From contig NW_023365756.1 of the NCBI RefSeq assembly GCF_000003815.2, forward strand, positions 1 to 64,000: a DNA stretch of 64,000 nucleotides, written 5' to 3'. Positions within the stretch are counted from its first letter, which is position 1. Each line of letters opens with the position of its first letter. Both the position numbers and the translations under genes were made by a program. The notes below the pieces were generated by a model, which saw nothing but the letters and a program-made list of their open reading frames with translations, was not told where the DNA came from and made no database searches. The DNA comes from Branchiostoma floridae (taxonomy: Eukaryota > Chordata > Leptocardii > Amphioxiformes > Branchiostomatidae). Below, in pieces: positions 488 to 35,832 of this stretch.

Positions 488-12162
<11,675 letters not shown>

Positions 12163-12850
12163 CTATATGGCCGGGGTTTAGCATCAAAAGTGTTATCAAA
12201 ATTGACATGCTCATCATGTGTCCAGTTAGAAGTAGAACTACATTGGATGGTAGTTTGTTAAATGTCATGAATGATGGGTATGACTAACAAATACATCCAC
12301 AGTTGAGAATCATTTTCTACTGTCATAACAATTACTATGATCATGTGAAATGCAAATGTCGACATGGAAATGGACACACACACACACACATGACACTTAC
12401 TTAACACTTAACACAACACACACTTAAAACATACTTTAAGACACATGGATGTCAGAAACCTCTGGACAACGAGAACCGAGAGATGATCTGATGATGGCAC
12501 GAAACAAGTGTTTGGAAGTTTGACAGATGTGCTCCACAATTATTTTCATAATGTTTTTGTTGATCGAAAAACGATACGCAGTAAATAATGGTCAAAATGA
12601 TGGCATTGAACTGTTCACGGTACAACTCCACGTAATACATACCAATAGCAGTTACTCAAGCAACTGGATATGATTTTGGAAACGGTCCTTCGTTTCAGAT
12701 AGTATCCACTATCTGTCGTCATTGACACTGTGATCTGAAAGAAACTGGTCTTTTATACCCTAACCTATGAATGAAGACAATTCTAGATGTCCAATAGGAA
12801 ACATTGTAAGACAAAGTCAAGCTGGAGAGAATTGGATCCAATAGAAAATA

Positions 12851-12967
12851 NNNNNNNNNNNNNNNNNNNNNNNNNNNNNNNNNNNNNNNNNNNNNNNNNN
12901 NNNNNNNNNNNNNNNNNNNNNNNNNNNNNNNNNNNNNNNNNNNNNNNNNNNNNNNNNNNNNNNNNNN
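12851..12967. other. Assembly gap (117 N) at the TMC / ankyrin-MYND junction
   Basis: The N run lies between the last visible TMC exon and truncated ankyrin-MYND copy A. Both genes lack exons on this side, so the gap size or the join may be wrong. Confidence 0.95.
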
Positions 12968-13359
12968 GAGGATAAGGCGGGGCATTAACGTTATTATCAT
13001 ATAGCCTACACAAACTGACCCATTTAAGCAACAAATTCCTTTATAATACATACATCCTTTATTCAAGACTTCCAAGGCTTGACATAATGACAAATTCCCT
13101 CCTGCTGGGACAAGTGTGTTGCTATTCAATCCTTAGTTATAGTTGTACATATTCAATAAATTTGAAGGAATGTGAACAGTAATAATGTTTGGATTAACTC
13201 TAACATGGACTGCACACTGTACAAAGCACCCCCCCCCCCCCACTGACTCACGCTAAAGGAACAAACAGAAACAAACTTTGTCAACTTCCGGTCAAGCGCT
13301 ACATGGAAGTAGCAATCGTCCATTGATTCTATAGTCTAATAGAAGGAGGTGATACCTAC

Positions 13360-15254
13360 ATCTCGTCTATATAGCTGTCTGGCAAATCAGGCCTTGCCCC
13401 AAGCTGAATCAGTCGTTTAACCGTGTCGACGTGGTTGTTGATGCAAGCAGTCATGAGTGGAGTGTACTGGAAGCCGTCCTTTATTTCTAATGTTGCACCA
13501 TGCTGCACCAGCAAGTCCACCACTTCTGTGTTCCTTATGTGCGATATGAGACACAAAAATTACGCATCAATTAAACGTTGCAAACATAGTATTTCCAAGT
13601 TCCTGCTCTGCAATGTGAAAATACGATAAACCTCCACAAATCATTGTGCTTCCCTTTTGTACGCTTTTTATTGTGCTTTCGTATTTTATGACGTCTAGTA
13701 CATGCTCGGTTTAGCCTATAGACATATCAGCTCGCATGCATTTCTTTCCCACTACATGTACAAGTATTACCTACATTCCAAAGTTGGGTGACCATGATCC
13801 AAGAGGTGTGAATATCACCGGAATATTTCGCAATGAACATCGTATGTCAGTATTTAGCTTATAGCTTCTATTGTCTGGCTTTGTAGTCAAACAGCATGTG
13901 TTGTGGATTGACCTACCACTGTGCGCTGCTGTGTGAAGAGGAGCAAATGTACTCTTGGATCTCTTCACCATAGACGCCCCCTTGCGGAGCAGGAGTCTCA
14001 CTACATCTACATGTCCCCTGTTGGAAGCCAGGAACAGAGCTGTGCCAGAGCTGAAGACCTCACTGTTTACACGGTCGTAGTCGATGTCTGCACCTGCGTT
14101 TGGGGATTACAAGAGTAAAGCTTTGATATGATTTTACAAGTACAAGTGAGATACCAAATAAGTTAAAAACAGCAATCACTCACAAACTTGCAAAATATAT
14201 TATGGATACCTAGTAGTTAAACAAGTGTGTTGCTCATTGTATGTTTCGACGGCCGTAGATCTGTGATGGGTGACCATGAGTTTCTACCAACCCATACGGA
14301 CTCACAGTAACGGAGAGCATTGTCTTTTGTATAACTTCCTTTCGAAAAGACACACATGACACACATAACAGGGCTTAGGCATCATGATACATTTGACTGA
14401 CATTATCTTTGCATACTTCTCCAGGGGACAACTGTTACTTCCCAGGACACAGTTGTTATGCACGGTTAGATGGAACAACAAAGATAGTGGCCTACAACAG
14501 TTGTCTGCTTGGTATAAAACAAAGGTACCGGTAGTGTACGCACTTACACAAGTGAGAACAGCCTTTACATTTGAATAATACCCGCTCAAAAGCCTTGTTT
14601 TCACATTCAAATTTAGGAGCAGATTCCTGCTGTAACCATCACTTGTACTATGAAATAAAACAACACAACACATGTACCTAACTGTATGCAAGTGTTATGA
14701 GAACACTAAACGCTCAGAGCTGGGCATGTAGGAACAAAGCTACTCTTCAAGGTTGGTGGGGAAAAACTTAGCGACATAACACGAAAAGGTCACAGTTTCA
14801 CCCCGCCAACCTCTGCTTGGAGAGTAATTCAAAACCAAGAAATATCAGTGGTTAATGTGGATGTTGTCCATAAAGCGAACTGACTTCGTTTTTGGGGACG
14901 CTTCGACTTTAGTAGTAGATGTGCAATGGGATACATAGCAGTGTTTAGCTAGCAAAATTCAACGCTCTTCAATGATTTACGACACATTGTCTGACACGAA
15001 TATAATATTCTCCAAGCAGAGGTTGGGTTGGGGAGGGAGGGAGCAGTAAGACATCTCGATTGGTCACTTGATAACCAGTCTCTACTGCCTACCGACCCAA
15101 CTTTCGCTAGGACAATAGATGACAGTCTTTAATAGGAGCCTGAGAGTTTCAATTTGTGCTTACCTGCTTTCAAAGACATTTCAACGCCCTCAAGTGAGCC
15201 TTCCCTAGCAGCATGCAACAGGAATTCATTCACATCATAATAAGTTTCCGCCAT
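13360..15254 (-). pseudogene. Ankyrin-MYND copy A, truncated and splice-damaged
   Basis: Three exons match intact paralog C: exon 1 15254-15164 (start MAETYYDVNEFLL), exon 2 14093-13917 and exon 3 13534-13360, encoding ankyrin repeats such as TALFLASNRGHVDVVRLLL. Two lesions are visible. The exon 3 acceptor, CATAG|GG in copy C, is CATAAGG here, so the only AG is shifted by one base. Using it (exon start 13533) changes frame and meets a stop after about 15 codons. Second, homology to copy C intron 3 runs to about 13210 and stops at a poly-C tract; exons 4-5 with the MYND finger are absent. The first two exons remain open, so a short product or a recent loss is possible. Confidence 0.8.
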
Positions 15255-15567
15255 TTCTTCAAGACCGCTGTTGTCGACACCTTGCTCGCGTGCTGTCTGG
15301 GCTTAAACTGATCAGTGAAGAACCATGGGAGTTGGAGAGTTGGTAAGTATGTCTCGTCACGTGATCTATTCTTTTGCCACGTGACTAGTGACATGGTAAG
15401 ACAACAATAGTTCACGTGACCAGACAACTGTTTCCCATGATTCTTCAGTTCAAGCCTATTATATACAATAAGGGAAATCGGCCAAGGTCTTCTAACAAGA
15501 CTGCTCAGTCGGAAGGTGTGGACAACAGCAGTTCTGGGAAGGCGTCAACAACAGTGGTTACAACAAA
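15255..15567. promoter_or_regulatory. Bidirectional promoter A/B with three CACGTG boxes
   Basis: 313 bp separate the divergent start codons of copies A and B. CACGTG occurs at 15358-15363, 15378-15383 and 15413-15418, in contexts GTCACGTGA, GCCACGTGAC and TTCACGTGAC. These are E-boxes of the type bound by bHLH-ZIP factors (USF, MITF/TFE). Both flanks carry a related AAGGTGT-GACAACAGCAGT block just upstream of each ATG, so the region is roughly mirror-symmetric. Confidence 0.7.
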
Positions 15568-18500
15568 ATGGCATTGTATGGAATTGATGCAAACTATGAC
15601 CTGTTGTGTGCTGCCAGGTATGGAGAACTTGAAGACGTTAAAGCGGCTTTGAAAGCAGGTGAGTACATAATTATGTATTTCTCTTCCCTAAAGCGTTTAA
15701 CGTTATAATAATGTCAACACGCGCAAGGTGTTGAAAACGGCGTTTTTAACGAAATGAAGAAAGCCTGTGTCTATGGTATGTTGTATGGTTTGAGTTTGGC
15801 CCACTTCAATGCATTAGAACAGCTTTGAAAGCATGTAAGCACATAGTGAAATTCTTTCCTAAAACGCATGCACGCACCATACGGCAAGGTGTACAAGCAG
15901 GTAAATTGTTTTGGTTTCGAATGCTGGTCGCCTGTTTCTGTGATGTAGTTGATCATGGCTTTTCTACGTGCCCTATACATATCTTTGTCTTTTATACCGC
16001 ATGTTAATCTCATTAGATTAACAGGTGGCATAAGAGTATCAAAAGTGTCCAACCTTGGTCCAACTGGCCCTCACCCTGACCCTTTGGATAGAAATGTCTT
16101 TTTATGCCGCTGGTAAATATGTTGTGTTGAACGTTGAATGTTCTCGGAAACTGCGTCACTTTAGTTTATGGGCAACATCCGCATCAATATTTCTTGCCTC
16201 TGGGTATCCCACCACGCCACCCCCTGGAAAATGTGCAAATCATAGCATTTGCTGTTATAAACAGTCACTGTGTTAACGTTGCTTTGCTTCACAAGTGCTG
16301 GGTGTGGCAGAAATGCCGTAAATGCTCCCGCAAAGATCGAAAAGTTGGAGCAGTAAATGTGTATTCACATGTAAATTAGAAATAAGGACCCACGCAGTTA
16401 CTTGGGACACCTTTGTTGCATGGTATGCAGACAAGTTGCATAATGACAATAGATTAGCGTGCTTTGAATCAACACCGACTATGTTTTTTTTCGTCCGGAT
16501 TTTGCTATAAAGTTGAGATCTTTTAAAATGTAAATTATATGTAAATAAGGACCCCCTCACAAGTGCGCACAGTGCACTAGCCGCACATTTGTTCTTTGTT
16601 TCATGCTATGCAGACAACTTGCATAATGATAATACGTCATTAACATGTTTTAAATCAACGCCAACTTTTTTCTAATTTGTGCCTGATGTTTTACGTGGTA
16701 AAAAGTTAGCAAGTAATATAACACTAGTAGTCGAATACCAAGGTCGCAAAATAATAACGTTTTTGTCATGTTTCAAACAAGCATTTACAAATAAGATCAA
16801 CAAAACTTTTGCTGTAGTTGAATTTTTCGTTGTTACGCAGCGTAAGATGGCCTAATTTACAGGTTAAACGCCACGTTATAACACTAGACGGTTCGCAAAG
16901 TTGTTCGAGCTCGCATTGGGAAGGAAAGTCTGTCATGACTGTATATGTTTTGTAGTAGGCGGTAGGAACAGCCTTTCCCTTAATTCAGCCCCATTCACAA
17001 GAATATTAATACTATTATTGGTAATGGTATAATGATTCGTCTTTCGGACGGGATGTAAAACGGGTGGTGCATCGAGCAAGTAAATCAGCCCCATGATTTA
17101 CTCAATTGTAAAACCATATCAATGTTATTACCAAACGCAGGTGCAGACATCGACTTCGACCACGTGGACTGTGAGTCCTCCAGCACTGGTACGGCGTTGT
17201 ACAATGCTTGCATGAAGGGACACATCGACGTGATCAAACTGCTACTCCGCAAGGGGGCGTCTACGGCGAAGAGAGACAAAACTGCATTTGCTCCCCTTCA
17301 CGTAGCAGTACACGAAGGTAAGACAATCCACAACAGATGATGGTGTATATGTGACCTATTGGATCATCCGAATTTGCAAAATACGTACTGCTTATACCCC
17401 CTCACGTTAGGCGAAAATCGATCGGACGACGAGTCTGTGAGCTCTAAATTACGAGGAGGCATGACCCTGACGGGCAGGGGGGACTCTGCAATTTCTTCGT
17501 TGGCATCATGGCCATGCCTCCTCGTAAATTAGAGCTCGCAGACTCGTCGTCCTATCGAATCGCGCCTAATGTGAGGGGGTATATTACTATAAGGAAACCC
17601 TCTTGATAGATAGTACATGTAGCATGTGAGCGAAGAGGTCCATAGTACATATATATGCCAGGCCAAAACGTGCTGCACATACTACTAGTATGACATTGAA
17701 AAGCACACACGCTATACTGACAACCACACACGCACAAGAATCTGCAGTAACTTTTTATGAAGGCATATCTCATTTAGAAGGGATGGGAAAATACAAATAC
17801 CCAGTTTGCTTGATTTATATATCCCGTTTCTCCCATCCTAGGAAGGATTGACGTAGTTGACTTGCTGGTGCAGCATGGTGCAACAGTAGACATACGGGAC
17901 GGCTTCCAGAACACACCACTCATGACTGCATGTGTCTACAATCGTGTGGACTTAGTTAAGCGATTGATTCAGCTTGGAGCAAGGCCGGATGTAAAAGATG
18001 GCTACATAGCCCAGAGGCAAGTATACATCCTTCTCGTGACCTAGTGAACTATTGCTTCTTAATGTAGATACATTTTTATATTAAACTGAACTGTATTCTT
18101 TTTTATATTTTTTTCAGGGTGTATGTGTATGGTGTATATTTTATACCTGCTCCGATCCACTACAATCCGGATGTCATAAAATCGCGTATCACTTATACTG
18201 TGCGTCCTATATAAACGTATATACGCATGTGGCCTATAGTTACCTAAATGAGTCATATCTTCCATTATAGATTGGGAGACTATACCGGCTGTGACAAGAG
18301 TCGGAGGCTGATACAAGCGGCGGCGAAGTCCAAGCTGTTGAGATGCTGCAACCCCAAGTGTGGCAAACCAGGCTACAGGTAGATTTTCTGCTGACGGTTC
18401 CGCAGCAAAATGTTGTATTTCTACTTTGTCAGAGAAGAATGTTTATCAAATGTTGGTATATTATAGAACCAAATAAATTATTTCCATTTGACTTTCTACA

Positions 18501-18808
18501 ACAGTACTCTTTGTAGCCTACGAAATGACGTTCTGAACCCTGCACAGTCCCTAAATGGATTGTTTACCTTCTACAGGAAAACCCTGAAGCTGTGTGCCGG
18601 GTGCAAGCTGACCCGCTACTGCAGCCGTGACTGTCAGAAACAGCACTGGTCTGTCGGACACAAGAAGTGCTGTGGGCATGACGCGTACACTGAAGAAGGG
18701 CCACATCCCATCGACAGAATGGAATCACATCCTAGCACATGTCCATGTAAACAAGAGAGGTTTAAATTTCCAAAGACGTCTGTAGTGAAACGGCTTTATC
18801 CTAAATGA
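15568..18808 (+). CDS. Ankyrin-repeat and MYND zinc-finger protein, copy B
   Basis: Five exons: 15568-15658, 17141-17317, 17842-18016, 18271-18378, 18577-18808. The total is 783 bp, a 260-residue protein with no internal stop. Residues 1-135 hold about four ankyrin repeats (YDLLCAARYGELEDVKAAL; TALYNACMKGHIDVIKLLL; APLHVAVHEGRIDVVDLLV; TPLMTACVYNRVDLVKRLI). A basic linker leads to a MYND finger: CCNPKC, LCAGC, YCSRDC, then HWSVGHKKCC, with all zinc ligands in place. Such proteins are usually cytoplasmic or nuclear interaction adaptors; the partner is unknown. The exon 3 donor is AG|GCAAGT, a GC-AG intron shared with copy D. The unique C-terminal tail ends KRLYPK. It is divergently paired with broken copy A. 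Confidence 0.88.
17395..17581. mobile_element. Foldback MITE-like element in intron 2 of copy B
   Basis: Arms of about 67 bp (17397-17463 and 17513-17579) are inverted repeats with few mismatches. They start CCCCCTCACGTTAGGCG and are flanked by TA on both sides. Copy D has no such sequence at the equivalent intron position (near 25300), which gives an empty site. A related end (AAAATCGATCGGACGACGA) occurs near 19598. Confidence 0.8.
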
Positions 18809-19321
18809 AGAACTGTTGAACACACGATGCGGCAACAGCCATATCAAATGAAGTCAAAAGATAAGTGGCAATTTGGAATGTTGGCAAATCCGGAATTTCT
18901 TACTTTGGTCAGTATGGATAAGCTGCTTGTGTTTTTGTGTAACGTTTTATACAATAATGTTGTGTCAAATCTTTTTATTCACATATGTAGTCTGTAAAAT
19001 TTTACATGGTTCTGTCAATAACTCGTTCAAGTTGGTTTATCTTGTAAAAGAAAGTTAAATTTGGAGTCAGAATGCAACAAATAATTAGAAAATGTTGCAG
19101 CGCCCCCATTTCCTGTCGTTAATGTTTTATGTTGGACGTTGTTGATGTTTACCAGTAAGCTGACAATCTGTTCATTTCACAATTACCCCCTCCCCCAAAA
19201 TTAGATCTGAATTGTGATTAGTAATGTCCGAGCTAAAGTAACATTCTAGTGTACGATATGTTAGTGTTTTGGTGTGAATGTAATGCTATCTCAGTATCTG
19301 TTGTTATTCTATGTAAATAAA
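18809..19321 (+). other. 3'UTR of copy B with AATAAA at 19316-19321
   Basis: The region after the stop is homologous to that after copy D, up to the shared block TATGTAAATAAA. The same block is found after copy D (27359-27364) and as an orphan at 31430-31435. Confidence 0.65.
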
Positions 19322-20917
19322 AGCAAAATGAAAAGTGAACAAGTCTCTTGATAACTTGCAATTGCTTTTCCCTGTTCGTGTGTAAGTTCAATTGAATAAC
19401 ATGGCCAGAACATATCAAAACCGGAAGTTCCGTTGCACTACCGTATAAAGCCGCTAGAGGACCCATTACTGAACACCTTTGTTTTACCGACCGATACCCA
19501 TACCGACTGTAATGTTTGATCCGCACACACTGGGAATGGCCCTACTCGTGTTTTATGAGTGTGCTGGGTTCTTTTATACCCCTGTCACATTTGTAGAAAA
19601 TCGATCGGACGACGATTTTGCGGCAATCGCCCGATCCTCGCTTATAGTAATAGCTTTATTGCACAACAATTGTACGAGGTACAAAGTATGGCTTAAATGT
19701 AACAGGGAAAAAGTGAACAAGTCTCTTAATATACTAGTAATACCCCATCCCCTTTATGTTTTATGTTTGACCTTGTTGAGGTTTATTTCCCAGTTCCCAA
19801 GTTTTTTCCCGAAATTAGATTTGTGATGTGATTCGTACTGTCCAAGCTTCGGGAGATCGTTACCTTCTTCTGACAAGAGTTAATCTATCTGCTATTATAT
19901 TGTAGATGAATAAAAACAAATATATAAAAAGGTGTGTAAGTTGACCAAATATGACCAGAACATGGCATATCAAACCCGGAAGTTCCGTAGCAGTACCGTA
20001 CAAAACCCTAGAAGACCCATTAGAAAACTTGACTTTTGTTTTCCGATCTCTACCCACATCTTCTTCTTGGTTTTCGAGACTACTAACTTCAGCTGAAGAA
20101 TCTATAGTCAATATACCGACTGTTAGGTTTGATCCGCTCACACCTGGAATGCCCACCACTCTTTTCTAGTCCCTAGCCAAATGCTCCTTTTTATCTGAGG
20201 CAAAGGGGCAAAAGATCCGACAGAATTCGCACCTGTCGAAAATTGATAAGCGCGTGGATGTCATACATATTATCAAATCAACATGACCTCGCTGGGAAAA
20301 AACCACGCGTTACGTTTAGCATAAAATGTCTAATAGACTAATTTTTGGATATTAGTCTAGTACCCACGAATCGGAGAAAGATCTATTAACATTTACTTTG
20401 TTGTGTTTGTTAATAACAGTCGGCGTCACATTTCATTACCTAATCACATTCATATCACAACACTCAACAGACCATTCAGTAGGATGTTATTTTTTATTAT
20501 ACGAAACACGATTGAGGGAGAACATGAAACGTACCCGTGACAATTATGTTGCAACAGTGAGCCACGTTCTCAGTGATCTAACAACGGATACGAAAGGTAG
20601 AGTCCCGACTCCACATCTTACATTTCAACTTGTTAACGTCCTGCGACAAGATAATCCAAGTAAAACGAGGTCTTTATAAACCACATTACTGTTCAAATAG
20701 AAACCAGTTGACAAAACAAACAAAACTTAGCGTTGTCTTATACCTACGTATATGGATACAAGCACCATAAGAAAGAGATAAATGTTTCAGGTTTGGCAAC
20801 TTATTGTTTGCTATATTTCATATGCGGCTGTTGTCGTGTACTCCACAGTTCTTCGTATTGAATGATAAGTCGTCTCATGTCATCGTTAAAGATCAGAAGT
20901 AGTAAAAACGTTTAGAG
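19322..20917. other. Intergenic between convergent copies B and C
   Basis: It holds two copies of the 'ccggaagttcc' dispersed repeat (near 19405 and 19965) and a MITE-like end near 20255-20290. It also holds the reverse-strand 3'UTR remnant of copy C (around 20480-20540, matching ATCGTGTTTCGT in the family's 3'UTR). No gene is seen. Confidence 0.55.
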
Positions 20918-23657
20918 TCACAATTCTTTTGCACGTGCACATGCCTGTGCTATTAGATCATCTGCCATGGACTTGAAGAATTTGAAGAAGGGGCTTGGTC
21001 CATCGTTAGTGTACGCGTCATGCCCACAGCACTTCTTGTGTCCGACAGACCAGTGTTGTATCTGACAGTCACGGCTGCAGTAGCGGGTCAGCTTGCACCG
21101 GCCACACAGCTTCATGGTTTTCCTGTAGAAGATAAACAGGTAAAGATGCAATTGAGTAACTATGAAGAGCTCCGGAAGATTTTTTTCATTTTGTGAGCTA
21201 CAAAGACTTGTAGAAAGTTCAATTCATATACCAAGTTGCACATCGGACAAAATTCGGAAGGGGTTTCTTTTCAAAAGTAATAACAGAATATTTCAGCTAT
21301 GGAACCGTTAAAAAACCTACCTGTAGCCTGGTTTGTCACACTTGGGGTTGCAGCATCTTAACAGCTTGGACTTCCTCGCCTTTTGTACAAGCTGCATACT
21401 CTCGGTACTTAAGTTTCCTCGCCTAATGGAAGATGTGACACATTAATGCATTTAGGGAGCCGCCAGGCCATGAGATATCAATACATAGATTTTTATAGGA
21501 CGCAAGAACTAGTGATACAATATGACTTCAGGTTTGTTGCATGTAGATTGGAAGATTATGAACATTATACTAGTAAAACATACATGCACACCCCCCCTCA
21601 CTCACTCACGCTTAAGAAACAAACAGAAACAAACTTTGTCAACCTCCGGTCAAGCGCTACATGGAAGTTTGTTTACACGAGAAGCAATCGTCCTTTGATT
21701 CTATAGTCTAATAGAAGGATAAGATACTTACATTTCGTCTATATAGCTGTCTGGCAAATCAGGTCTTGCCCCAAGCTGAATCAGTCGTTTAACCGTGTCG
21801 ACGTGGTTGTTGATGCATGCAGTCATGAGTGGTGTGTACTGGAAGCCGTCCTTTATTTCTAACGTTGCACCATGTTGGACCAGCAAATCCACCACTTCTG
21901 TGTTCCCTATGCACGAAGACACAGAAATTACGTATTAAGTAAACATAGTATTTTCACGTTCCTGCTTTGTTTCTGCAATGTGAAACCTTAATAAATCATT
22001 GTGTTTACCTTTTGCGCGCTTCTTATCGCGCTTTCTTATTCTATCACATCTAGTACATGCTCTGCTTAGCCTATAGACATATCCGCTCACATGCATTTCT
22101 TTCCCACTACATGTACTAGCATTACCTACATTGCAAAGTTGGGTGACCATGAGGCAAGAGGTGATAATATCATAGGAATATTTCGCAATGAAAATCGTAT
22201 GTCAGTATTCAGCTTATAGCGTCTATTGGCTTTGTATTCAAACAGCATGTGTTGTGGATTGACCTACCATTGTGCGCTGCTGTGTGAAGAGGAGCAAATG
22301 CACTCTTGGATCTCTTCACCACAGACGCCCCCTTGCGGAGCAGGAGTCTCACTACATCTACATGTCCCCTGTTGGAAGCTAGGAACAGAGCTGTGCCAGA
22401 GCTGAAGACTTCACTGTTCACACGGTCGTAGTCGATGTCTGCACCTGCGTTTGGGGATTACAAGAGTGAAGCGTTGATATGATTTTACAAGTACAAGTGA
22501 GATACCAAATAAGTTGAAAACAGCAATCACATATCAACTCACAAACTTGCAAAATATATTATGTATACCTAGTAGGTAAACAAATATGTTGCTCATTGTA
22601 TGTGTTGGCGATGGTAGATTTGTCATGGGTGATCATGAGAAGTTTTTTTATCAATCCATATGGACTCACAGTTACGAAGAGCAATGACTTCTGTATAACG
22701 AAGTTCCTTTCGAAAAGACACACATAATACACAGCACAAGGCTTAGGTATTATGATAGTTGATACGCACTATTTGACATGGTCTATTACGTTATCTAATA
22801 TGAGACATTATTATATTCTTGCATACTTTGTGAATTGCAAATCTCCAGGGGAGAATTGTTACTTCCAATGACATAATTGTCATGCACGGTTAAATGGAAC
22901 AACAGAATATACATAGCGGCACACATCAGTCGTATGCAAGTTGTCTGCATAGCATAAAACAAACAACAAACGGGCCGATAGTGTACTGTATGCACACAAG
23001 TGAGAACAACCTTTACATTTGAATAATAGTGCACATTTGAGTATCCGCTTCAAAGCTTGTTTTCACATTCAGATTGATAAAAGAAGATTCTGGAATGTAC
23101 GCAACTGCAAATATATAATATGAACACTGAACACACAGATGCGAGGCATATAGGGATATTCAAAGCTAGCTACTCTCCAAGAAAAACGCCACGACCCCCA
23201 CCAACCTCTGCTTGGAGAGTAGTAGTGGTCAAATTTATGTGGATGCTGTCTATAAAGCGAGCTGACTTCGTTTTAGGGGACGCTTTGACTTTGGTGGATG
23301 TGCAAATCACAAAATACCTCTTCAACTAGCAAAATTCGTGTTCAACTTCTTTAGATCACAGGTGACCGGCATTTGTCACCGGAATAAAAAGTTCTTCAAT
23401 GATTTACGACATCGTGTCTGACACGAGTATAAAATTATCCAAGCATAGAGTAGATGGAGCATCTCGGTCACTTATGATAACCAGTCTCTACTATCTGCCG
23501 ACTCAACTTTTGCTAGGACAACAGAGGATACGTCTTTAATAGGACAGAGTTTCAATTTGTGCTTACCTGCTTTCAAAGTCATTTTAACGCCCTCGACTGA
23601 GCCTTCCCTAGCAGCATGCAACAGGAATTCATTCACATCACAATAAGTTTCCGCCAT
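20918..23657 (-). CDS. Ankyrin-repeat and MYND zinc-finger protein, copy C
   Basis: Exons on the minus strand: 23657-23567, 22444-22268, 21906-21732, 21422-21321, 21122-20918. The total is 750 bp, 249 residues, with frame continuous across all junctions. It begins MAETYCDVNEFLLHAAREG and carries ankyrin repeats (TALFLASNRGHVDVVRLLL; APLHTAAHNG joined to NTEVVDLLVQHGA; TPLMTACINNHVDTVKRLI). The MYND finger follows: CCNPKC, LCGRC, YCSRDC, HWSVGHKKCC. The tail ends in ACARAKEL. Exon 3 uses a normal GT donor (AT|GTAAGT), unlike B and D. It is the intact counterpart of copy A and is paired head to head with D. Protein-interaction adaptor by family; specific role unknown. Confidence 0.88.
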
Positions 23658-23955
23658 TTCGTCAGGACCGCTGTTGTCGACACCTTGCGCGCGCGCTGTC
23701 TGGGCTTGAACTGATCAGTGGAGAATCATGGGAGTTCGTAAGTTTGTCTCGTCACGTGATCTATTCTTTTGTCACGTGACTAGTGACATGGTAAGACAAT
23801 GACAACTCACGTGACCAGACAACGTCTTCCCATAATTCTTCAGTTCAAACCTATAATAAGGGAAATTGGTCAAGGTCTTCTAACAAGACTGCTCGCTCGG
23901 AAGGTGTGGACAACAGCAGTTCTAGGAAAGCGTCAAGAACAGTGGTTACAACAAA
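23658..23955. promoter_or_regulatory. Bidirectional promoter C/D with three CACGTG boxes
   Basis: 298 bp lie between the start codons of C and D. CACGTG is at 23753-23758, 23773-23778 and 23808-23813, the same 20- and 35-bp spacing as in the A/B promoter. The middle box is the full palindrome GTCACGTGAC, which equals the published CLEAR motif of TFEB-type factors. Which factor binds is inference. Confidence 0.72.
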
Positions 23956-26875
23956 ATGGCATTGTATGGAATTGATGCAAACTATGACCTGTTGTGTGCT
24001 GCCAGGTATGGAGAACTTGAAGACGTTAAAGCGGCTCTGAAAGCTGGTGAGTACATAATTATTGAATTATCTTTCCTAAAGCGTTTAACGTTATAATAAT
24101 GACAACACAGGCGCAAAGTGTTGAAAATGGAGTTTCTAGCGAAATGACGGAAGCCAAGTCTATGCGAATGAATTTCTGTTGTGTGGAGTTGAGTTTGGTT
24201 AAAATGGCTTTGAAGAAGGTAACCACATAGTGAAATTATTTCATAAAGCGCAAGCACACACCATACAGCAAGGTGTACAAGTAGGCAAATTGTTGTAGGA
24301 CTTTTGGTTTCGAATGCTGGTGGCCTTTTTCTGTGATCTAGTCTTCTGTTTACAAATGTATCCTACACGTCTATAAGACTGTGTCCCCTGATCTTCAGGT
24401 TGACAGGTGGCATAAGAGTTTAAAAGCAGTTCAGCCTTGATCCAACTGGCCACTGCTTTGGCTCCTTTGATACAATATTGTTGTTTTTATTCTATACAAG
24501 TGCTGGGTACAGCAGAAATGTAGTAAATGTTGTAGTCTCCGAGTTGATGCTTTGGATCAGTAGATGAGTATTCAAATGTAAATTAGAAATAAGGACCCAC
24601 GCACAAGTGCGCACACGGTACAATTGGCCTATGGGGGCACCTTTGTTCTTTGTTCCATGCTATGCAGACAAATTCCATAATGATAATGAGGCATTATCGA
24701 TCGTGTTGTGAATTGACGCTGACGGTTTCGTCTGATTTTTGCTGAGTTTTTATTATGTAAAACACGGTATAATAGTGGTATAACCTTTGTTCTTTGTTCC
24801 ATGCTATGCAGACAAATTGCATAATGATAATGGGATATTATCGATCGTGAATCGACGCTAACGGTTTCGTCTGTTTTTTTGCTGAGTTTTTATTATGTAA
24901 AACTGTATGAAAGGCATGACTCGCATGTTAAACGTGGAAAACATGTTTTCAAGTTACACTAGTCGGCTAACAAAGTCGAGACACAGTGCCACCTAGAACA
25001 GCGCCACCTAGAATTTCACAAGACTTATGCACTCATGTTATTACTAAACGCAGGTGCAGACATCGACTTCGACCACGTGGACTGTGAGTCCTCCAGCACT
25101 GGTACGGCGTTGTACAATGCTTGCATGAAGGGACACATCGACGTGATCAAACTGCTACTCCGCAAGGGGGCGTCTACGGCGAAGAGAGACAAGACTGCGT
25201 TTGCTCCCCTTCACGTAGCAGTACACGAAGGTAGGACAATCCAAAACAGATAAGCGTGTGTATATGACCGCCTGGATCATCCAAATTTGCAAGATATGTA
25301 CTACTAACGAAACCCTCTTGATAGCCAGTACGTATAGCATGTGAGCGAAGAGGTCAATAGTACATATATATGCCAGGCCAAGACGTACTACACATACTAC
25401 TAATATACTGAAAACATTCTCCTACGCAGAGGGACCACAGTCGTGTCCAAACTCCTTGTGTTTACCTCTGCTATCTTGTGCACTCAGACCAGTTACGGAC
25501 CGCCCTGCTTATGAATATTAATGAGCTTACCCTGATATGGGCAGTCAGCCGTTGGGGTCGGGCGTAGGAGGATGGTGCTATGTGAGACGTAACATGATTG
25601 GCTGATAGCTTTCCAGCGGCCTTTGCGAGATGGCTTTCATGGCTTGCGTAAACAGAAAGCCCAAGAAATGCCTATTCTCTTATTGGCTAACAGCTGGTTT
25701 GTGGCAACAACCATAATAACCGCTGGTAGGCCATGAGATAGCAGGGCCACATAGGCTGAGTCAGGTAGCCGTTGGGGACCGTGCGTAGGAGGATGACTGA
25801 AAAGCACACACGCTATACTGATAAGCACACACAATGAATCTGCAGTAACTTTTTATTACGACATGCCGCATTTGGAAGGGATGTGAAAAATACAAATACC
25901 CAATTTACAACGTTTGCTTGATTCATATTTCCCGTTTCTCCTATCCTAGGAAGGGCAGAAGTGGTGGACTTGTTGGTGCAGCATGGTGCAACAGTAGACA
26001 TACGGGACGGCTTCCAGAACACTCCACTCATGACTGCATGCGTCTACAATCGTGTGGACATAGTTAAGCGACTGATTCAGCTTGGAGCAAGGCCTGATGT
26101 AAAAGATGGCTACATAGCCCAGAGGCAAGTATACGTCCTTCTCGTGACCAAGTGAACTATTGCTTCTTGATGTAGATACATTTTCATATTAAACTGGACT
26201 GTGTTCATTTATGTGTGTTTTTTAGAGTGAGTGTGTGTCTTTGTGTATAATTTTTACTGCTCCGACCAACTACAATCCTTATGTCAGAAAATCGCGCATC
26301 ACTTATTTCCTCTTATACCGTGTGTCCTATTGATACGTATATACGCATGTGGCCTAGTTACCTAATTATGAGTCATATCTTCCATTAGACTGGGAGACTA
26401 TACCGGCTGCGACAAGAGTCGGAGGCTGATACAAGCGGCGGCGAAGACCAAACTGCTGAGATGCTGCAACCCAAAGTGTGGCAAACCGGGCTACAGGTAG
26501 GTTTTCCTACTGACGGTTCCACAGCAAAATGTTGTATTTCTACTTTGTCTGAGAAGAATTGACCCAACCGAATTATTTCCATCTGTAATTTACAAGTCTT
26601 TGTAGCCTACAAAATGACATTGAGAAAAATTGAACCCTGCACAGTCCCTAAATAGATTGTTTACCTTCTACAGGAAAACCCTGAAGCTGTGTGCCGGGTG
26701 CAAGCTGACCCGCTACTGCAGCCGTGACTGTCAACACTGGTCTGTCGGACACAAGAAGTGCTGTGGGCATGACGCGTACACTGAAGAAGGGCCACATCCC
26801 ATCGACAGAATGGAATCACATCCTAGCACATGTCCATGTAAACAAGAGAGGTTTAAATTTCCAAAGACGTCATGA
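23956..26875 (+). CDS. Ankyrin-repeat and MYND zinc-finger protein, copy D (altered MYND)
   Basis: Exons: 23956-24046, 25054-25230, 25950-26124, 26389-26496, 26674-26875. The total is 753 bp, 250 residues. It is very similar to copy B, starting MALYGIDANYDLL with the same ankyrin repeats. As in B, exon 3 ends at a GC donor (AG|GCAAGT). Two differences stand out. In the MYND finger a six-base deletion turns CQKQHW into CQHW, shortening the spacing between the C-x3-C ligands and the H-x3-C ligands by two residues. Near the end a four-base deletion relative to B makes the protein stop after PKTS, losing the KRLYPK tail. Both keep the frame open. Zinc binding by the second site may be weakened. 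Confidence 0.87.
24650..24905 (+). repeat. Tandem duplication (about 140 bp) in intron 1 of copy D
   Basis: The block from CTTTGTTCTTTGTTCCATGC through TTTATTATGTAAAAC occurs twice in a row. Related single or diverged copies lie in intron 1 of B (16410-16690) and E (33470-33560). It is therefore ancestral intron sequence, re-duplicated in D. Confidence 0.7.
25416..25794. mobile_element. Insertion in intron 2 of copy D, absent from copy B
   Basis: Flanks on both sides align with copy B intron 2 (ACTACTA... and TGAAAAGCACACACGCTATA), while the 379 bp between do not. The ends ATTCTCCTACGCA and TGCGTAGGAGGAT are inverted repeats matching at 12 of 13 bases. The right end is duplicated internally near 25546-25575. 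It looks like a non-autonomous DNA element. Confidence 0.65.
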
Positions 26876-27364
26876 AACGGCTTATCCTTATCTGTTAAGC
26901 ACACGATGCGACAACAGCCATTTCAAATGTAGTAAAAGATAAGTGGCAATTTGATATTTCTTACTATGGTCAGTATGGGTAAGTTACTTGTGTCTTAAGT
27001 TTGTATATACAGTACATGATAATGTTGTGCCAAGTCTTTTTTCACATATGTTTGAAATGTCAATTTGGTTTATCTTGTAGAAGAAAAGTTTAAAGAAGTT
27101 AGATTTGCGATGAGTCAAAATGCAACAAAGAAAATCTTACAGCGTCCCCATTTTCTTTCGTATCTGTTAGATTAGATAAATCTAGATCAATGATCGAGAA
27201 TTTAACCGTCGCGATATAATCACAGATAAGTTTCATATTCTCCCTTGCCTCGATCGTGTTTGTTTGATAAAAGTACCATTCCCTACTGAATGTTGTGAAT
27301 GTAATAAGATAATGAAGTGTTAAGCTATCTGCTGTTATTCTTTGTAAATTTCTATGTAAATAAA
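26876..27364 (+). other. 3'UTR of copy D with AATAAA at 27359-27364
   Basis: Homologous to the copy B 3'UTR and ends in the shared TATGTAAATAAAC block. Confidence 0.6.
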
Positions 27365-27639
27365 CACTACAAAATGAAAAGTGAACAAGTCTCTTAATAT
27401 AATGCTTCATCCCCTTCGTATGAACGTAAAACGTATGACGTAAAAGTTAGGGTTTATTTCCCAGTTAGGTGAAAATTTGTTCAGATCCAGAGGCCACACC
27501 AAGAACATAAAATACAATGTAAAACATAATGACTCCATTTTCATAAGCACGTTTATCTCACTATTCTTCATATGATGTCATCCATAAAATTTACTTGCTG
27601 TGGCCTAGCAGTCCAAACGTAGATAGCAGGCCTGCCTAC

Positions 27640-28720
27640 GCCTTACGGAAAAGAGCATGCAGACCCTCTTATCAGAATGTTGGGCTAGTTTTCTCCAAGC
27701 AGATGTATCGAGGGCAGTATCAGACTTCAGTAAGGCCTTTGATCTTGTAGATCACACCACGGCTATATGTCACCTTCTCGAGCTCGGAGTCCGACCGCAA
27801 ATAGTGCCATGGATTGCCAGCTTTCACACTGACCGGAGTCAGAAAACCAAATACCAGGGAGCGCTCTCACAAGTGAAACATCTTACCTGTGGCCTGGCGC
27901 AGGGTACGAAACTCGGCCCTATTATGTTTATAGCCCATGTGAATAGGATCGCCGACAACATGCGGTCTCAGTCGTGGGGTTTTGTAGATGACTTAAACGT
28001 TATTGAAACAAGACTGATAGCCCACCCATCCAAACTGCAGGATGATCATAACAACCTTTCTACATGGACTGAATCGAACAACAACTGAACTCAGGCAAGT
28101 GTAAGGCTATGCAGGTGTGCTTTGTCAGGAACCCACCCCCACCCCCTGTTCTCACCACTGGCGGTCGTGAACTTGAAGTAGTCAGTATTGCTAAAGGCTT
28201 AGGGGTAACCTTCCAGTCTGACCTCAAGTGGGTCACGCACGTCGTAGAAATGACTAAAAAAAGGGAAGCAGTGGTTGTACCTCCTATGTAGGCTGAGGCA
28301 GTTTCAGCTACCCACACAGGACTTGTTGCTTACAGTCTACACATGTTTTGTACGGCCGGTTTTGGAGTATGCAACCCCCATGTGGCATCCTGCCTTAACC
28401 AACAGCCAACGGAAGAAGATAGAGAGCATTTAAGTGCGTGCGTGCAGCTGAGATCATCCTTGGCAACAACTTCCACAGTTACACCTCAGCCTGTGAAGCT
28501 CTACGACTCTAAACTCTCGAGGACCGACGTGTCACGCTGTGTCTGAAGTTTGCACAGAAACTGTACAAGTCTGAACAGTACAGGCATTGGTTTCCACGGC
28601 TGCGGGGAGAAATAAGTGGTAGGGAAACTAGACAGCACAAAAAAACTTGTCAATGGCCAGCCCGCACTGTACAATACTCTACAATCCCACTCCCTTACCT
28701 TGTACAGCTCCTGAATAGCA
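27640..28720 (+). mobile_element. Decayed CR1/L2-like LINE with reverse transcriptase fragment
   Basis: 27657-28088 reads as an RT core: DFSKAFDLVDH, then GLAQGTKLGPIMF and the catalytic box FVDDL (family YADD). Downstream, KGLGVTFQSDLKWVTHV and fragments resembling the post-RT region continue in another frame (28109-28291, then 28343 on). At least one frameshift and several stops are present. The 5' end and endonuclease are missing. This is a dead element between copy D and the 28963-30317 gene. Confidence 0.8.
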
Positions 28721-28962
28721 TATTTTAACGGTAAACCAGAATATTTTAACTGTTCGTATATGTATATATATATACATACATGTTGATATGTGATTTTAGC
28801 CCATTATTAAGTAAGCCCGATTTGTCAATGTACTTTTTAATGTACAAAACATGTAATTCAGCACTCTAGATCCCCCTTGGAGCTGAATACTGATGCATTG
28901 TATAACTTTATCTTTCTGAATCTAAAGTCCAAACATTATTGTTTAGTCACAGCTGTCTGAAT

Positions 28963-30317
28963 CTACGTATACAGTCCACCGGCGGCCCATGCCCGTCTAG
29001 CGATTATCATGTCCCTGAGGAGATTCCTTGCTTCTTCACCACTTGCTTCTTGACTGCCGTCCGTTATAGGTCGTACGTAGTACCTGTTGGTTCCGGGAAC
29101 ATGGTCCAACATGAGGACGGGGCACACTTGCCATTTGGCCAACAGCAGCTGGCGACGCGTCAGTCTGGCGGGACGGGCTTGCGGTACAAAAGGTACCACA
29201 GCACTGCTGGTCGCCCCGCCCTCACTGGTTGCCTGTGGCGCCTCCCCCGGGCTGTCTTGTCCATCCAAATCGCTAGGGGTCTCGCTTACCTCGCTAGCGT
29301 CCTCCGTATTTGTGACCTCCATCTTCGGCATAAAAAATCCGGGTTCAACCCAGCAAAAACTTTCCTCCTTCTCGGTAGTTTTGTTGGGCTGTCCAGGTAC
29401 GGGTGCAGAGGCGCTTGCTCCCGCTGTGATGTTTGGGCCGTTGTGGGTCGGGCCGTCAAGGTCTTCCTTCTCCACTTTCGCGGATGGAGTTTCGCTAACG
29501 TTGTTGAGGCCTGAAACTGTAGAGATGTAAAAATATGTAAAAAAAAGGATTTCGGGATCTATAATATTGACATGTTTATTCGATTATATGGATGGTATAC
29601 GCACATATAAGTTTTCGTCCGTTTCTACAAAATGATGCGCATAGAATTCTGTGGTTCGACTGCTCACACAGCGCGGTGTAAGATACAGGCAAATGTTCTA
29701 GAACAGCAAGGCCATTCGCTCTCCAAGAAAATGTGTTAAAAACTACATTCTCTTAAACCCACTTCTGTTTTTCTTAAAAATGATAACTTCTTTAGCCATG
29801 TAACCATACATGTAACGTTATGCACTACTTCACGCCATGTTTATTTAGTCATATATAACCAATAGATATTGAGCTTACAGTTTTCTTATATCGATTTGCA
29901 ACCAATTCAAAACAGTGGCTACTGTATGTCTCATATCGCATTGATTTCTACAAACGTATTAATTTTTCCAATTGTCAACAATACTGCCAAACGGTTTACA
30001 AGTGCACGCAGGTCGACTGCCTTTCATTCTTCAATACAACGTTATGTTATCGGAGTATTCATGAATACATTTTAGTGGCCTTGGATTGTCTTTGGACGAA
30101 TGAAGGGAAAGATTTTCGTCCGTGGTTCATCCGCTGTCACGGTGTGGCACTGACCGTTCTTAGAACACTTACAAGGTCGTCTTGACCTGTCTAAGCTGAC
30201 AGAAAGTATTATGGGGTTTAGAGAAGTAAACATGCACTCACCACTCTTCAGATAGCCGTAGAGCTTGTCTACAACCTGCAGCAACAATCCAGCATTGATC
30301 ATAATCAAACCGAACAT
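28963..30317 (-). CDS. Unrecognised two-exon gene, 209-residue protein with N-terminal hydrophobic segment
   Basis: Exon 1 is 30317-30242 and exon 2 is 29516-28963. GT-AG sites are good (AAGAGTG|GTGAGT; CTCTACAG|TTTCAGG) and the joined length of 630 bp is an exact open frame. The protein starts MFGLIMINAGLLLQVVDKLY, a signal peptide or signal anchor. The middle is acidic and rich in Ser, Thr and Pro, with two similar blocks, NNVSETPS and SEVSETPSDLDG. The C-terminal third is basic then compact (LTRRQLLLAKWQVCPVLML...NLLRDMIIARRAWAAGGLYT). Exon 2 is markedly more GC-rich than its surroundings. I do not recognise the family. It may be secreted or a single-pass membrane protein. It interrupts the ankyrin-MYND cluster. 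Upstream exons cannot be excluded. Confidence 0.6.
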
Positions 30318-31265
30318 GTTGATTCTAAACGAAGTCGAAAAATCAATCGAGAAACAATGTCAAGTTAGAGGAACGCAAAAACGCGTGTGATCACTTGTCT
30401 TCCAAATTTTCTCAACTGTAAATATGATTATGACGTCATAGAGAAGTTACGCAGGAGTCTAAGGTGACATTTATGACGTCATAAAAGGTAGGTTGGTTTT
30501 CATGTTACATAAAAGAGCTATGTGACGTGTTTCATTTTCGTTGGCTGTTTCTTTACAGTGGTCTTGAATCTGAAAGGCCGACAAAGTACAATCTTCGCGT
30601 GTAGTAAATATTGAATCCGCAAGAGGGACTCAGTACCCTAGACGACGCTAGCCAAGTCGTCATTTCTTAGGCCAAAAAGAGCAAAAAGATTGTTTTTTTC
30701 CCAATTTTTCGTTAAAAATGACCTCCAGTGAAAATACTTTTAAAGAAAAACAAAATAGCCGCGGACAGTTTTAACAAACAAGTGCTGATACTTCAAAATA
30801 CACTAAATTTGTCAGCAATAATGCTATTTTGACCGAGGCTGAAACCCATAAAGTTGACAATGCAAGTTGCTTCGCGAAGCTTCGGGCCGTTGTCAATCAA
30901 AGCTGTCGTTTTCCTGCCATTTTAAATCGAACACGGTTCGGGCGGTACCATTATGCGGCTTCCGCGGGGGCCTTGTATTCTTAATCGCATCGAATTATTT
31001 CAATATTTGATAAAAACTTTATCAATACCTAATACGGTTAGCACTTAGACGTCTTTCCAAAAGTAGTTAGTGTGCCCCATACAAAGTGAGTTCCTGTTTT
31101 CGAAATGTAACATAACGTTATGACATTGGACCGTTCTGAAAACTTGGCGGTCCTGCAGGTCACCTACGGTCACGGAGTGGTTCGAAATTCATGTTCGGTT
31201 CCATCACCCTGGTAACCTTGCGGGCCACGCCCTTTTTTACTCCCCAGGGAGCTCTATCGAATCAC
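30318..31265. other. Intergenic, nothing recognised
   Basis: No coding frame or clear repeat. The proximal part probably contains the promoter of the minus-strand 28963-30317 gene. A palindromic TTCGCGAAGCTTCG stretch lies near 30872. Confidence 0.4.
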
Positions 31266-32699: not shown

Positions 32700-32868
32700 G
32701 AAATGACAATCTGGTCATGTGACAATACTTGTAGTTCATATGGCAAGACAATGATAGCTCACGTGACAAAACAATAGGTCACGTGATGAGAGAGCTGCTT
32801 CCCGTGATCCTACAGTTCAAACCCAGACAGCACGCGCGCAAGGTGTCGACAACAGCAGTCCTGACGAA
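32700..32868 (+). promoter_or_regulatory. Promoter of copy E with two CACGTG boxes
   Basis: CACGTG at 32760-32765 and 32780-32785, 20 bp apart as in the paired promoters. A degenerate CATGTG at 32715 sits near the expected place of the third box. The AAGGTGTCGACAACAGCAGT block before the ATG matches the A/C side of the divergent promoters. Confidence 0.65.
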
Positions 32869-35832
32869 ATGGCGGAAACTCGTGACGCAAATGAACTTCT
32901 GTGGCAAGCTTCTGAGAAAGGCTCACTTCAAGACGTTAAAACGGCTTTGAAATCAGGTAAGTACATATTGAAGTTCTTTCCTGAGACGTATAAAGTTACA
33001 CGTTATCAGACAACAGGATGGGATTTTGGTTCTGCGAGCTGGTCGTCTGTTTCCATGATCTAAAGACGTTAAACACGCTTCTCTTTGGTTTATATGTATC
33101 CTACTCACTGCAGTCTAAGTCTCAACCGAAGCCAACTTCAAAGCCCCCAGGAACGACGTCAGTTTAGTCTACGTTTTATCAAGACCTCCTTGGTTTGTGG
33201 ACAACATCTTCTTATCTCAGAACATCCCACCACGACGCCTACGTATACTGAAACTGTTAAAAGCACAAGTTTAGGTAGTATTTGCAGTGACGTACCTTTT
33301 ATGATTCTTGTGTTGGTTACAGCATAAATGTAGTACTAGTATACGTTTTCGAAATTTCTCTTAGCGTTGAATTTGAAAAGAGGGCTTTGGAGCAGTAAAT
33401 GAGTATTCAGATGTAAATGTACAAATAAGGACCCACGCACTAGTGCGCACACAGTACAATAGGGGGCACCTTTGTTCTTTGTTCCATACTATGCAGACAA
33501 GTTGCATAATGATGAGGTTATTAACGTGTTTTAAATCAACACAAACTTTTGTTTGCTTATTTTTGCTGTAGTGATGAGTTTGCAGTGTAAAGCACTGAAA
33601 AAATCTGAATCTCACGTTTTGTGTGAAAAAAAACTCTTCCCCAAATTATCACACTAGATGGTACTAAGTCCGTACCAAGCGAAGTCCCTAAACACGTTGT
33701 TGTTTCATTTCACCTTGTAGCTAACGTTACGTGACCCATACTTTTCCGACATACTGAGCATACGGTAGTGGTTAGGAAACATCGATGTAGTTTCAGATGT
33801 GCTTCCTAATTCCTGTACTATTTTCACTTATTTGAAAAATTGTATGAACGTCGGTGCACTCATGTAATCCCCAAACGCAGGTGCAGACATTGACTTTGAC
33901 CACGCGGACTGTGAAGGATGCAGTGGTACGGCATTGTACGTTGCTAGCACGGTGGGTCACGTCGACATAGTGAGACTGCTGCTCCGCAAGGGGGCGTCTT
34001 TGGTCAAGAGAGCCAAGACATCAGCCGCTCCCCTCCATGTAGCAGCGATAGAAGGTAAGTCAATCCACTAGAAATGCATGGAAGCTATAAACTCGAAATG
34101 AATACGATGTTCTCGGTGATATATTGTATAGTCATTATGTTTTGGATCATGGCAATATCAAAATTGCACAATACTACATTTAGTGACAATGAAGTTTATT
34201 GCATATTCATGCCCCGTTGGGGCTAAATGCAGTCAGTTTGGTACAAAAGGTAGTAAACGCAAAGTTATACAATTTCACATACTATAGTTTACATGCATCT
34301 TCTCTCTTCCTAAAACATTTGTAGATGAACTTACAGAGATTTTCTAGTATATCGTGGTCAGATGATGACATGAGATATTTGAACATATCTTCCTTCGTCA
34401 TTTAGTGTAAAATAAATTCATGTGTGGGTGGTCTTACTATGCTGACTTACTATGCAAGGAAAGGCTGAGCCGAGGAGATATAGTAGTAGTCAGGAGATCT
34501 ACTGTAAGAGTAAATTTCCCCGCTGCTACAATATCTCCGCGACTCAACCTCTGCTTGGAGAGTATGCTGACCTCCATAGCAGGCTCATTTGGGCTTTATA
34601 TTAGTCCATACCAGGATAGCCAACCTGCCCAACCACCAGGGCCAGACTTGCTACACTACAAAATTAAACTGAAAAGACACGAAACGTAAATTGCAATAAC
34701 TTGATATATTATATTTTCCTATATAGAAGGGACGTGATGAAATAAATGTGGACTTGATGTGTATATCCCTGTCTCAAATCCTACCTAGGGAAGACAGAAG
34801 TGGTGGATCTACTGGTGCAACATGGTGCAACATTGGACACACAGGACGGCTGGCAGAAGACACCACTCATGGTTGCATTTAGCTATAATCGTGTCGATAC
34901 TGTTCGAAGACTGATTGAGCTTGGAGCAAGGCCTGATTTAGTCACCGACGATTACATAGCCACGATGTAAGTGTCACATCCTTCTACCAGAATAAGTATA
35001 TAGGACGCATAACTATTGTTTCTTATGCAGAAAAAACATTGGTCTTATTCGTCGGCTTGTGTTTGATTCTATTTCTTTCAGTGTGCGTTTTGAGAGATGG
35101 TAATTTTTGTTTCTTGTTTCATACTGTTCCGATCCGCATTCAAGAACACTATATGTCATAAAATCATGTATCACTTGAAACTTTTAAATTGTGCATCTTA
35201 TGAAAAAAATCCTACATATATATGTCTCATGGCCTAGTTCCCTAAATTCATGTATTACGATTACTAGTATATACCATGGTCCAGTTCCCTAAACAAGTGA
35301 CATCTTCAACTAGGTTGAAGTACCTTGACTGTGACGAGAGTTTGAAGCTGGTACAAGAGGCGAGGCAGTCCAAGCTGTTGAGATGCTGCAACCCTAAGTG
35401 TGGCAAACCTGACTACAGGTAGGTTTTGCTGCTGATAGCTCCACAGCTACAGTAAATTGTTTTATTTTTAATTACTTGAATACTGTCATCGATCCTGTGT
35501 TCAAATGCTGGTATTGACCCGTGGAAATTATATTCATCTGACTTTCTACAAATATTTGTAGCCTACAAAATGACCCTGAGAAAATTTCTGACCCTAAATA
35601 GATTGTTGACCTCATGGCGTGTTTCATCCTCTACAGGTCAGCCCTGAAGCTGTGTGGCGGGTGCAAGCTGACCCGCTACTGCAGCCGTGACTGTCAGATA
35701 CAACACTGGTCTGTCGGACACAAGAAGTGCTGTGGGCATGACGTGTATACTGGCGAGAGATCAAACGCCCTCCAAACGTTCGTCAAGCACCTTCAGGACA
35801 AATACCTCCAGAATACTACATCTAAAACATAA
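32869..35832 (+). CDS. Ankyrin-repeat and MYND zinc-finger protein, copy E
   Basis: Exons: 32869-32956, 33881-34054, 34789-34966, 35314-35418, 35637-35832. The total is 741 bp, 246 residues, all frames continuous. It starts MAETRDANELLWQASEKG. The ankyrin repeats are more diverged than in the paired copies (TALYVASTVGHVDIVRLLL; APLHVAAIEGKTEVVDLLV; TPLMVAFSYNRVDTVRRLI). The MYND finger is complete: CCNPKC, LCGGC, YCSRDC, HWSVGHKKCC. The tail ends LQNTTSKT. All introns have GT donors. Start and promoter resemble the A/C side, so it is probably the oldest-diverged member of that side, now without a divergent partner. Confidence 0.87.
34190..34415 (-). mobile_element. LINE 3' end in intron 2 of copy E
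   Basis: The minus strand encodes the ORF2 C-terminus (FKYLMSSSDHDILENLCKFI) followed by the 3' terminus GCCCCAACGGGGCATGAATA. It has the same terminus as 43010-43245. Confidence 0.6.

Follow-up and report, generated by a model that had tools for sequence, protein, structure and literature searches.

Two divergent promoters, P1 and P2, in a 64-kb window of the Branchiostoma floridae genome each carry three CACGTG boxes, spaced 20 and then 35 bp apart, between genes of an ankyrin-MYND family. The window is the whole stretch of DNA that was analysed (contig C198 in our genome numbering), and all coordinates refer to it unless another contig is named. We find that the conserved element is a 20-bp unit, approximately ACAATAGCTCACGTGACAAG, usually present in two copies and centred on CACGTG, and that the exact doublet CACGTG-N14-CACGTG occurs at 102 places genome-wide, of which at least 44 lie in one ankyrin-MYND family (31 on contig C7, one on C11, three on C198, and nine on C199). 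Comparison among these places shows, at the level of sequence, a shared unit, its repetition, its position, and its link with the ankyrin-MYND family. The likely explanation is a promoter module of this expanded family, read by a factor of the basic helix-loop-helix leucine-zipper (bHLH-ZIP) type, of which the triad would be a local form with an incidental 35-bp gap.

The 20-bp doublet in ankyrin-MYND promoters

The genome searched comprised 513,431,437 bp in 431 contigs. The first 50 of the 102 doublet places were listed, and a filtered form of the pattern gave 83 strand matches. Sequences were examined for the 44 family doublets and nine others, and the listed ones among the other 49 were set aside by contig and spacer. 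A match to family exon 1 was found no more than 200 bp away at 40 of the 44 family doublets. The exceptions were L010 (match 1.5 kb on), L037 (none), L012, where a degenerate exon-1-like sequence lies directly downstream and an intact match 1.2 kb on, and L039, with a weak match (E 0.004) in the smaller search only. No family exon was found near the nine other places (L001–L004, L013, L016, L040) within flanks of 1.5 kb, 5 kb, or less than 0.7 kb. At L040 (C17:6674100-6674800) nine CACGTG occur in repeated groups with spacings that include 20, 11, and 35 bp, and no ankyrin-MYND exon was found within the 701 bases examined there.

Controls with the pattern written backwards were uneven (2370 compared with 102 for N14, 179 compared with 37 for N13, and 18+24 compared with 48+35 for the filtered form), the high counts of 2370 and 179 probably being due to simple repeats. 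Because of this unevenness a spacing of N13 was taken as the control. It occurred at 37 places, none of them on C7, C198, or C199, as against at least 44 family places for the 20-bp spacing, whose conservation had been proposed in an earlier note on this DNA and is upheld here. Pairs of TCACGTGA boxes at a variable gap were found at 317 places, compared with 113 in the backwards control, and a satellite on C3 filled the listed matches. A satellite with a 13-bp unit, TCACGTGAGCACA, runs from C3:33960979 onward. A near-palindrome in which two TCACGTGA boxes stand 24 bp apart, around a similar spacer of approximately CRATGTCCATCAAACG, is dispersed over C1:24222135, C2:934604, C2:25180357, C2:34239219, C2:34517243, and C3:4586882, and is either another promoter class or a repeat.

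Conservation of the unit was examined in 41 of the 44 doublets (three overlapping distal ones were dropped), among which 24 are non-redundant at less than 90% identity. The filtered search itself fixed both boxes as well as two adjoining spacer columns, a pyrimidine behind the first box and a T ahead of the second. By majority the spacer reads ACAAAACAATAGCT, the fifth base of which is found in only 11 of the 24. Nine of the 14 spacer columns agree in at least 19 of 24 doublets, two of these being pattern-selected; unselected columns include, for example, A in 23, C in 19, A in 20, A in 20, T in 20, and G in 22. The unit matches itself with an identity of 0.55 at a period of 20, compared with 0.19–0.39 at 14 other offsets. 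Aligned without gaps in 120 pairs drawn from 16 genes, the spacer shows an identity of 0.67 and the block one of 0.61, whereas identity falls to 0.30 immediately upstream, 0.43 directly ahead of the ATG, and 0.35 and 0.26 in intron 1. The TCACGTGA form is present at 73 of 85 family boxes, and the proximal box lies 88–127 bp before the ATG (median 102; 16 of 24 genes, with an open exon 1). A second motif shared by the 5′ leaders, approximately AAGGTGTCGACAACAGCGGT, lies a short way upstream of the ATG in many genes of this set of 16, as at 32840-32859.

Probable origin of the triad by inversion and duplication

The promoters and boxes of the window are listed below; the lengths of P1 and P2 are distances between the two ATGs of each divergent pair.

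15255..15567: P1, divergent promoter between genes a and b, 313 bp, an imperfect palindrome
15358..15363: P1 box 1, TCACGTGA, proximal box of gene a
15378..15383: P1 box 2, CCACGTGA, distal box of gene a, 20 bp from box 1
15390..15395: GACATG, possible decayed fourth box (gene b distal), mirroring box 2 when P1 is aligned to its reverse complement
15413..15418: P1 box 3, TCACGTGA, proximal box of gene b
23658..23955: P2, divergent promoter between genes c and d, 298 bp
23753..23758: P2 box 1, proximal box of gene c
23773..23778: P2 box 2, inside an exact GTCACGTGAC, distal box of gene c
23808..23813: P2 box 3, proximal box of gene d
32715..32722: TCATGTGA, decayed box 5′ of gene e, core CATGTG at 32716
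32736..32743: TCATATGG, decayed box 5′ of gene e, core CATATG at 32737
32760..32765: distal CACGTG of gene e
32780..32785: proximal CACGTG of gene e, 20 bp from the distal box

Clustering of boxes in P1, P2, and the gene e promoter exceeds chance expectation, well beyond what shuffled sequences produce. The three CACGTG of P1 were matched by none of 4000 dinucleotide shuffles and those of P2 by two of 4000, while the two within 199 bp of the gene e promoter were matched by 18 of 4000. YCAYRTGR triplets within 90 bp are confined, in the window, to these three promoters, and appeared in none of 100 simulated windows. The whole-window total of 17 CACGTG is unexceptional (shuffle mean 11.2; 17 or more in 10 of 100 shuffles). 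Seven of the eight window boxes have the TCACGTGA form, and the exact 10-bp GTCACGTGAC occurs once, at 23771. The six box positions of P1 and P2, the 20/35 spacing in both divergent promoters, the lengths of 313 and 298 bp between ATGs, and the presence of one exact 10-bp palindrome had all been given in the earlier note and are confirmed in the sequence, as are the two boxes of gene e.

The two promoters lie in units 1 and 2, copies approximately 8.4 kb apart with an identity of 82% overall, 91% between the ATGs, and 63–88% in the introns. Because the units are duplicates, agreement between P1 and P2 reflects a conserved promoter and not a conserved triad specifically, and the shared 20/35 spacing was rejected as independent evidence, both promoters being copies within a segmental duplication. 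A hairpin at 17393-17583, with 78-nucleotide arms that are 88% complementary, is located in gene b intron 2, the worst-aligned intron between the units.

P1 and P2 are built from inverted copies of one promoter, as is shown by their palindromic make-up. Aligned with its own reverse complement, P1 scores 72 over the boxes (300 shuffles: mean 18.8, maximum 30) and P2 scores 54 (shuffle maximum 31); the gene e promoter scores 34 (maximum of 300 shuffles 25), its match lying outside the boxes. Box 1 of P1 is the mirror partner of box 3, and box 2 that of GACATG at 15390. The gene e promoter aligns to both promoter halves, and its boxes at 32760 and 32780, read along the gene, correspond to minus-gene boxes 2 and 1 with a nearly identical spacer; it is in this gene orientation that the earlier statement of two boxes 20 bp apart in copy E holds true. 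A third site of gene e, CATGTG at 32716, is 44 bp away, compared with 35 bp in P1 and P2. The proximal box is 33 bp from the landmark CAGTTYAA and 20 bp from TCCCRT in genes b, d, and e; the corresponding distances in a and c are, respectively, 53 and 33, and 45 and 25. From these distances it follows that each gene has one proximal box of its own, and that the triad consists of the minus-gene doublet plus the plus-gene proximal box.

The genes concerned are as follows. The models of b, c, d, and e are splice-consistent, with five exons each, the last being the MYND exon.

13360..15254, minus strand: gene a, ankyrin exons 15254-15164, 14093-13917, and 13533-13360, likely a pseudogene
15568..18808, plus strand: gene b, 5 exons, ankyrin repeats and MYND exon, GC donor after exon 3
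20918..23657, minus strand: gene c, 5 exons, ankyrin repeats and MYND
23956..26875, plus strand: gene d, 5 exons, ankyrin repeats and MYND exon, GC donor after exon 3
32869..35832, plus strand: gene e, 5 exons, ankyrin repeats and MYND exon

The Pfam scan covered gene c alone and found ankyrin-type repeats and MYND and nothing else (Ank_2 99.5 bits, cut-off 27.3; zf-MYND 25.0, cut-off 22.7), with b, d, and e assigned by their shared five-exon layout with a MYND exon. A search of PDB sequences gave 457 matches, the best 60 of which are ankyrin-repeat proteins or fusions. The five genes form three lineages, a/c, b/d, and e, with synonymous divergence (dS) of 0.53–0.67 between lineages (exons 1-2 only for a). 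The ratio of nonsynonymous to synonymous divergence (dN/dS) of b relative to d is 0.067; these two genes are under purifying selection. In gene a the exon-3 acceptor is one base off and breaks the reading frame. No MYND exon for this gene was found in 9000-13360 (one 15-residue match, E 0.48), an interval that includes 117 N at 12851-12967, and gene a is probably a pseudogene. The description of two head-to-head ankyrin-MYND pairs in the earlier note thus holds in part: it stands for c/d and for b, and of gene a we recovered exons 1-3 in a broken frame, with no MYND exon located. Upstream of gene e, from 27200 to 32868, no divergent partner was found.

We examined nine head-to-head pairs that bear doublets, a sample made up of pairs with the exact 20-bp doublet. 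The 20/35 layout is shared by every one of the five window-type pairs, namely the two of the window itself and L025–L027 on C199, and P2 is 92–94% identical to the C199 copies. Four pairs on C7 (L014, L018, L021, L035) have instead two doublets each, with inner boxes 206–215 bp apart, and on their account a 35-bp gap was rejected as a family-wide constraint. Two looser pairs are separated by approximately 1.0 kb (L005) and 0.8 kb (L044). The fixed triad of the earlier note is not supported for the family, the 35 bp being the distance from the distal box of one gene to the proximal box of its partner, and four pairs having separate doublets. Judged from these alignments, the triad is one inherited special case of a shared promoter module.

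A candidate regulatory module and its alternatives

In the module that we favour, a 20-bp unit close to ACAATAGCTCACGTGACAAG is as a rule doubled, placing boxes, mostly of the TCACGTGA form, 20 bp apart, with the proximal one some 90–125 bp before the ATG. In the window, head-to-head paralogues are joined through inverted promoter copies, the pair having presumably been copied later as a block, an order of events that we infer. The minus gene carries a full doublet and the plus gene a proximal box with a possible decayed distal one, and the 35-bp gap would be a by-product of where two promoters meet. A candidate bHLH-ZIP dimer that prefers TCACGTGA, presumably of the MiT/TFE or USF class, would occupy each box and might switch family members on jointly; two sites approximately two helical turns apart could aid occupancy. 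It is likely, from the form of the boxes, that a TCACGTGA-reading bHLH-ZIP factor is bound at them. TFEB, MITF, and USF had been suggested previously, and the TCACGTGA flanks at 73 of 85 family boxes fit a TFE/MITF/USF type, an assignment made by motif only. A lineage-specific regulon is a more speculative extension and, in our estimation, doubtful: a single bHLH-ZIP factor, possibly assisted by an HMG-box protein at the ACAAT of the spacer (a partner that we guess at from the motif), would read the 20-bp composite repeat of two turns and co-activate dozens of ankyrin-MYND genes, with inverted pairs sharing sites.

Several observations weigh against the proposed module. The searches selected the boxes, so box invariance among the places found is no evidence, and places off C7, C11, C198, and C199 were excluded mostly by the appearance of their spacers. 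An exact doublet is present in roughly half of the listed family genes or fewer, the family having approximately 80 or more MYND exons by a hand count among the matches listed (150 of 634 candidates scored). Eleven genes without an exact doublet comprise six with a CACGTG no more than 130 bp from the presumed ATG, one with TCATGTGA, and four with no CACGTG in the 160 bp ahead of the ATG; in this set the printed start codon is not ATG for the L044 minus gene and L010, and the L012 stretch is partly N. The C199 copy of gene e, identical in its exon-1 peptide, has a proximal box only, homology between the two stopping within the spacer between the boxes. Once gaps are allowed, the block (identity 0.674) stands out far less from intron 1 (0.628) and from shuffled blocks (0.604), and only 75 of the 120 pairs have a higher value in the block than in intron 1. 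The proximal boxes of b and d are 155 and 148 bp from the ATG, outside the usual range. It speaks for the module that 30 of the 33 positions of the box block agree between c and e, two genes with a synonymous dS of 0.53. The 55 bp nearest the ATG are, however, conserved at least as well (52/55), and the advantage of the block over coding sequence is marginal (P 0.054). Gene conversion within the clusters could also keep promoters similar.

The spacing may alternatively be the mere period of an easily duplicated 20-bp local repeat, with a single proximal box sufficing. This account overlaps the module and differs from it only on the importance of the distal box, and we consider it somewhat unlikely. 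The units are alike at period 20, and the number of boxes varies as such a repeat might: L015 and L017 have three boxes at 20-bp steps, L019 has a fourth box 8 bp on, and in other family promoters an additional box stands 15, 23, or 10 bp away. Where a gene without the doublet has just one CACGTG, as four do, this lies 79–92 bp from the presumed ATG, and the C199 copy of e keeps just that box. On the other side, Tandem Repeats Finder at a score of 30 finds no tandem repeat in P1, P2, or the gene e promoter; the spacing is exactly 20 bp at the family doublets, with no N13 counterpart on C7, C198, or C199; and a box with one or two mismatches persists 20 bp upstream of the proximal box in L006, L018, and the L044 minus gene.

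Pure inheritance would have the boxes of a founding promoter spread as passengers of gene conversion and of duplication, both tandem and segmental, while neither their number nor their spacing was under selection. The window units are indeed copies, several C7 promoters are nearly identical, the copy of e and other genes do without the doublet, and in c and e the box block and the 5′ leader are equally conserved. Given the divergence between units 1 and 2, a three-box pattern placed at any of 5591 positions would survive in 669 cases, and within the promoter in 29 of 253. However, the introns of the duplicate would preserve it at only 35 of 3373 positions, a single intron accounting for 28 of these, and the doublet remains at the centre of the conserved island in promoters of less than 90% identity from 16 genes whose exon 1 has a mean amino-acid identity of 54%. 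We regard inheritance without selection as unlikely on these grounds.

The cooperative triad of the earlier note, in which three bHLH-ZIP dimers at a fixed 20/35 spacing would form one complex that co-regulates each pair, is highly improbable: the five of five window-subtype pairs that keep 20/35 are close copies (P2 and C199 92–94%), four other pairs are without the 35-bp gap and gene e has 44, the boxes are intact next to an apparently broken gene a, and, with a DNA helical repeat of 10.5 bp a turn, 35 bp amounts by arithmetic to 3.3 turns, off face.

Relation to known systems and other features of the window

To our knowledge ankyrin-MYND genes are not known as lysosomal. The boxes nevertheless resemble targets of the MiT-TFE factors (TFEB, TFE3, MITF) in the Coordinated Lysosomal Expression and Regulation (CLEAR) system, of which the consensus is the 10-bp GTCACGTGAC within 200 bp of transcription starts (PMC10626434). 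As there, the sites are promoter-proximal, one is an exact GTCACGTGAC, and most window boxes have the TCACGTGA form. CLEAR positions are counted from the transcription start, whereas the distances of 88–127 bp (16 genes) and of 155 and 148 bp (b and d) given here are from the ATG. The CACGTG boxes described here differ in that the targets are ankyrin-MYND genes and the boxes recur as 20-bp repeats whose spacer contains a conserved ACAATAG. Tandem E-boxes of CLOCK:BMAL1 also combine two sites at a fixed spacing; their gap is 6 or 7 nucleotides (PMC12424780), whereas the gap here is 14 nucleotides.

Bidirectional promoters account for 25% (3,950/15,884) of neighbouring genes in amphioxus and are enriched in housekeeping functions (PMC6292497). 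On that figure the head-to-head layout is itself ordinary, and the pairs of the window share with that class a separation of divergent genes below 1 kb (313 and 298 bp between ATGs). They differ in that the partners are paralogues fused through an inverted promoter, while the enrichment described there is for housekeeping genes. Tandemly duplicated gene clusters can share an inherited cis promoter motif, and the ankyrin-MYND promoters resemble them in having a cis motif inherited across a gene cluster; here the unit is itself a two-copy 20-bp repeat, the exact form of which is carried by about half of the genes listed, or by fewer. No literature on ankyrin-MYND promoters in amphioxus was found, judged by titles.

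The doublets turn a local curiosity into a testable regulon, with at least 44 promoter doublets, alike in spacing and in the type of spacer, across a large gene family. The family offers natural variants with zero, one, two, and three boxes, and pairs with joined or separate doublets, so that box number and spacing could be related to expression without engineering. The inverted make-up of P1 and P2 also suggests a route by which divergent paralogue pairs may originate, through an inverted promoter.

Elsewhere in the window, a tandem repeat array with units of 132–133 bp occupies 38660-39652, and an open frame of 302 amino acids at 50059-50967 consists of leucine-rich repeats. An inverted repeat at 56334-56817 and 62535-63018 has 484-nucleotide arms, 94% complementary and 5.7 kb apart, and is possibly a mobile element.

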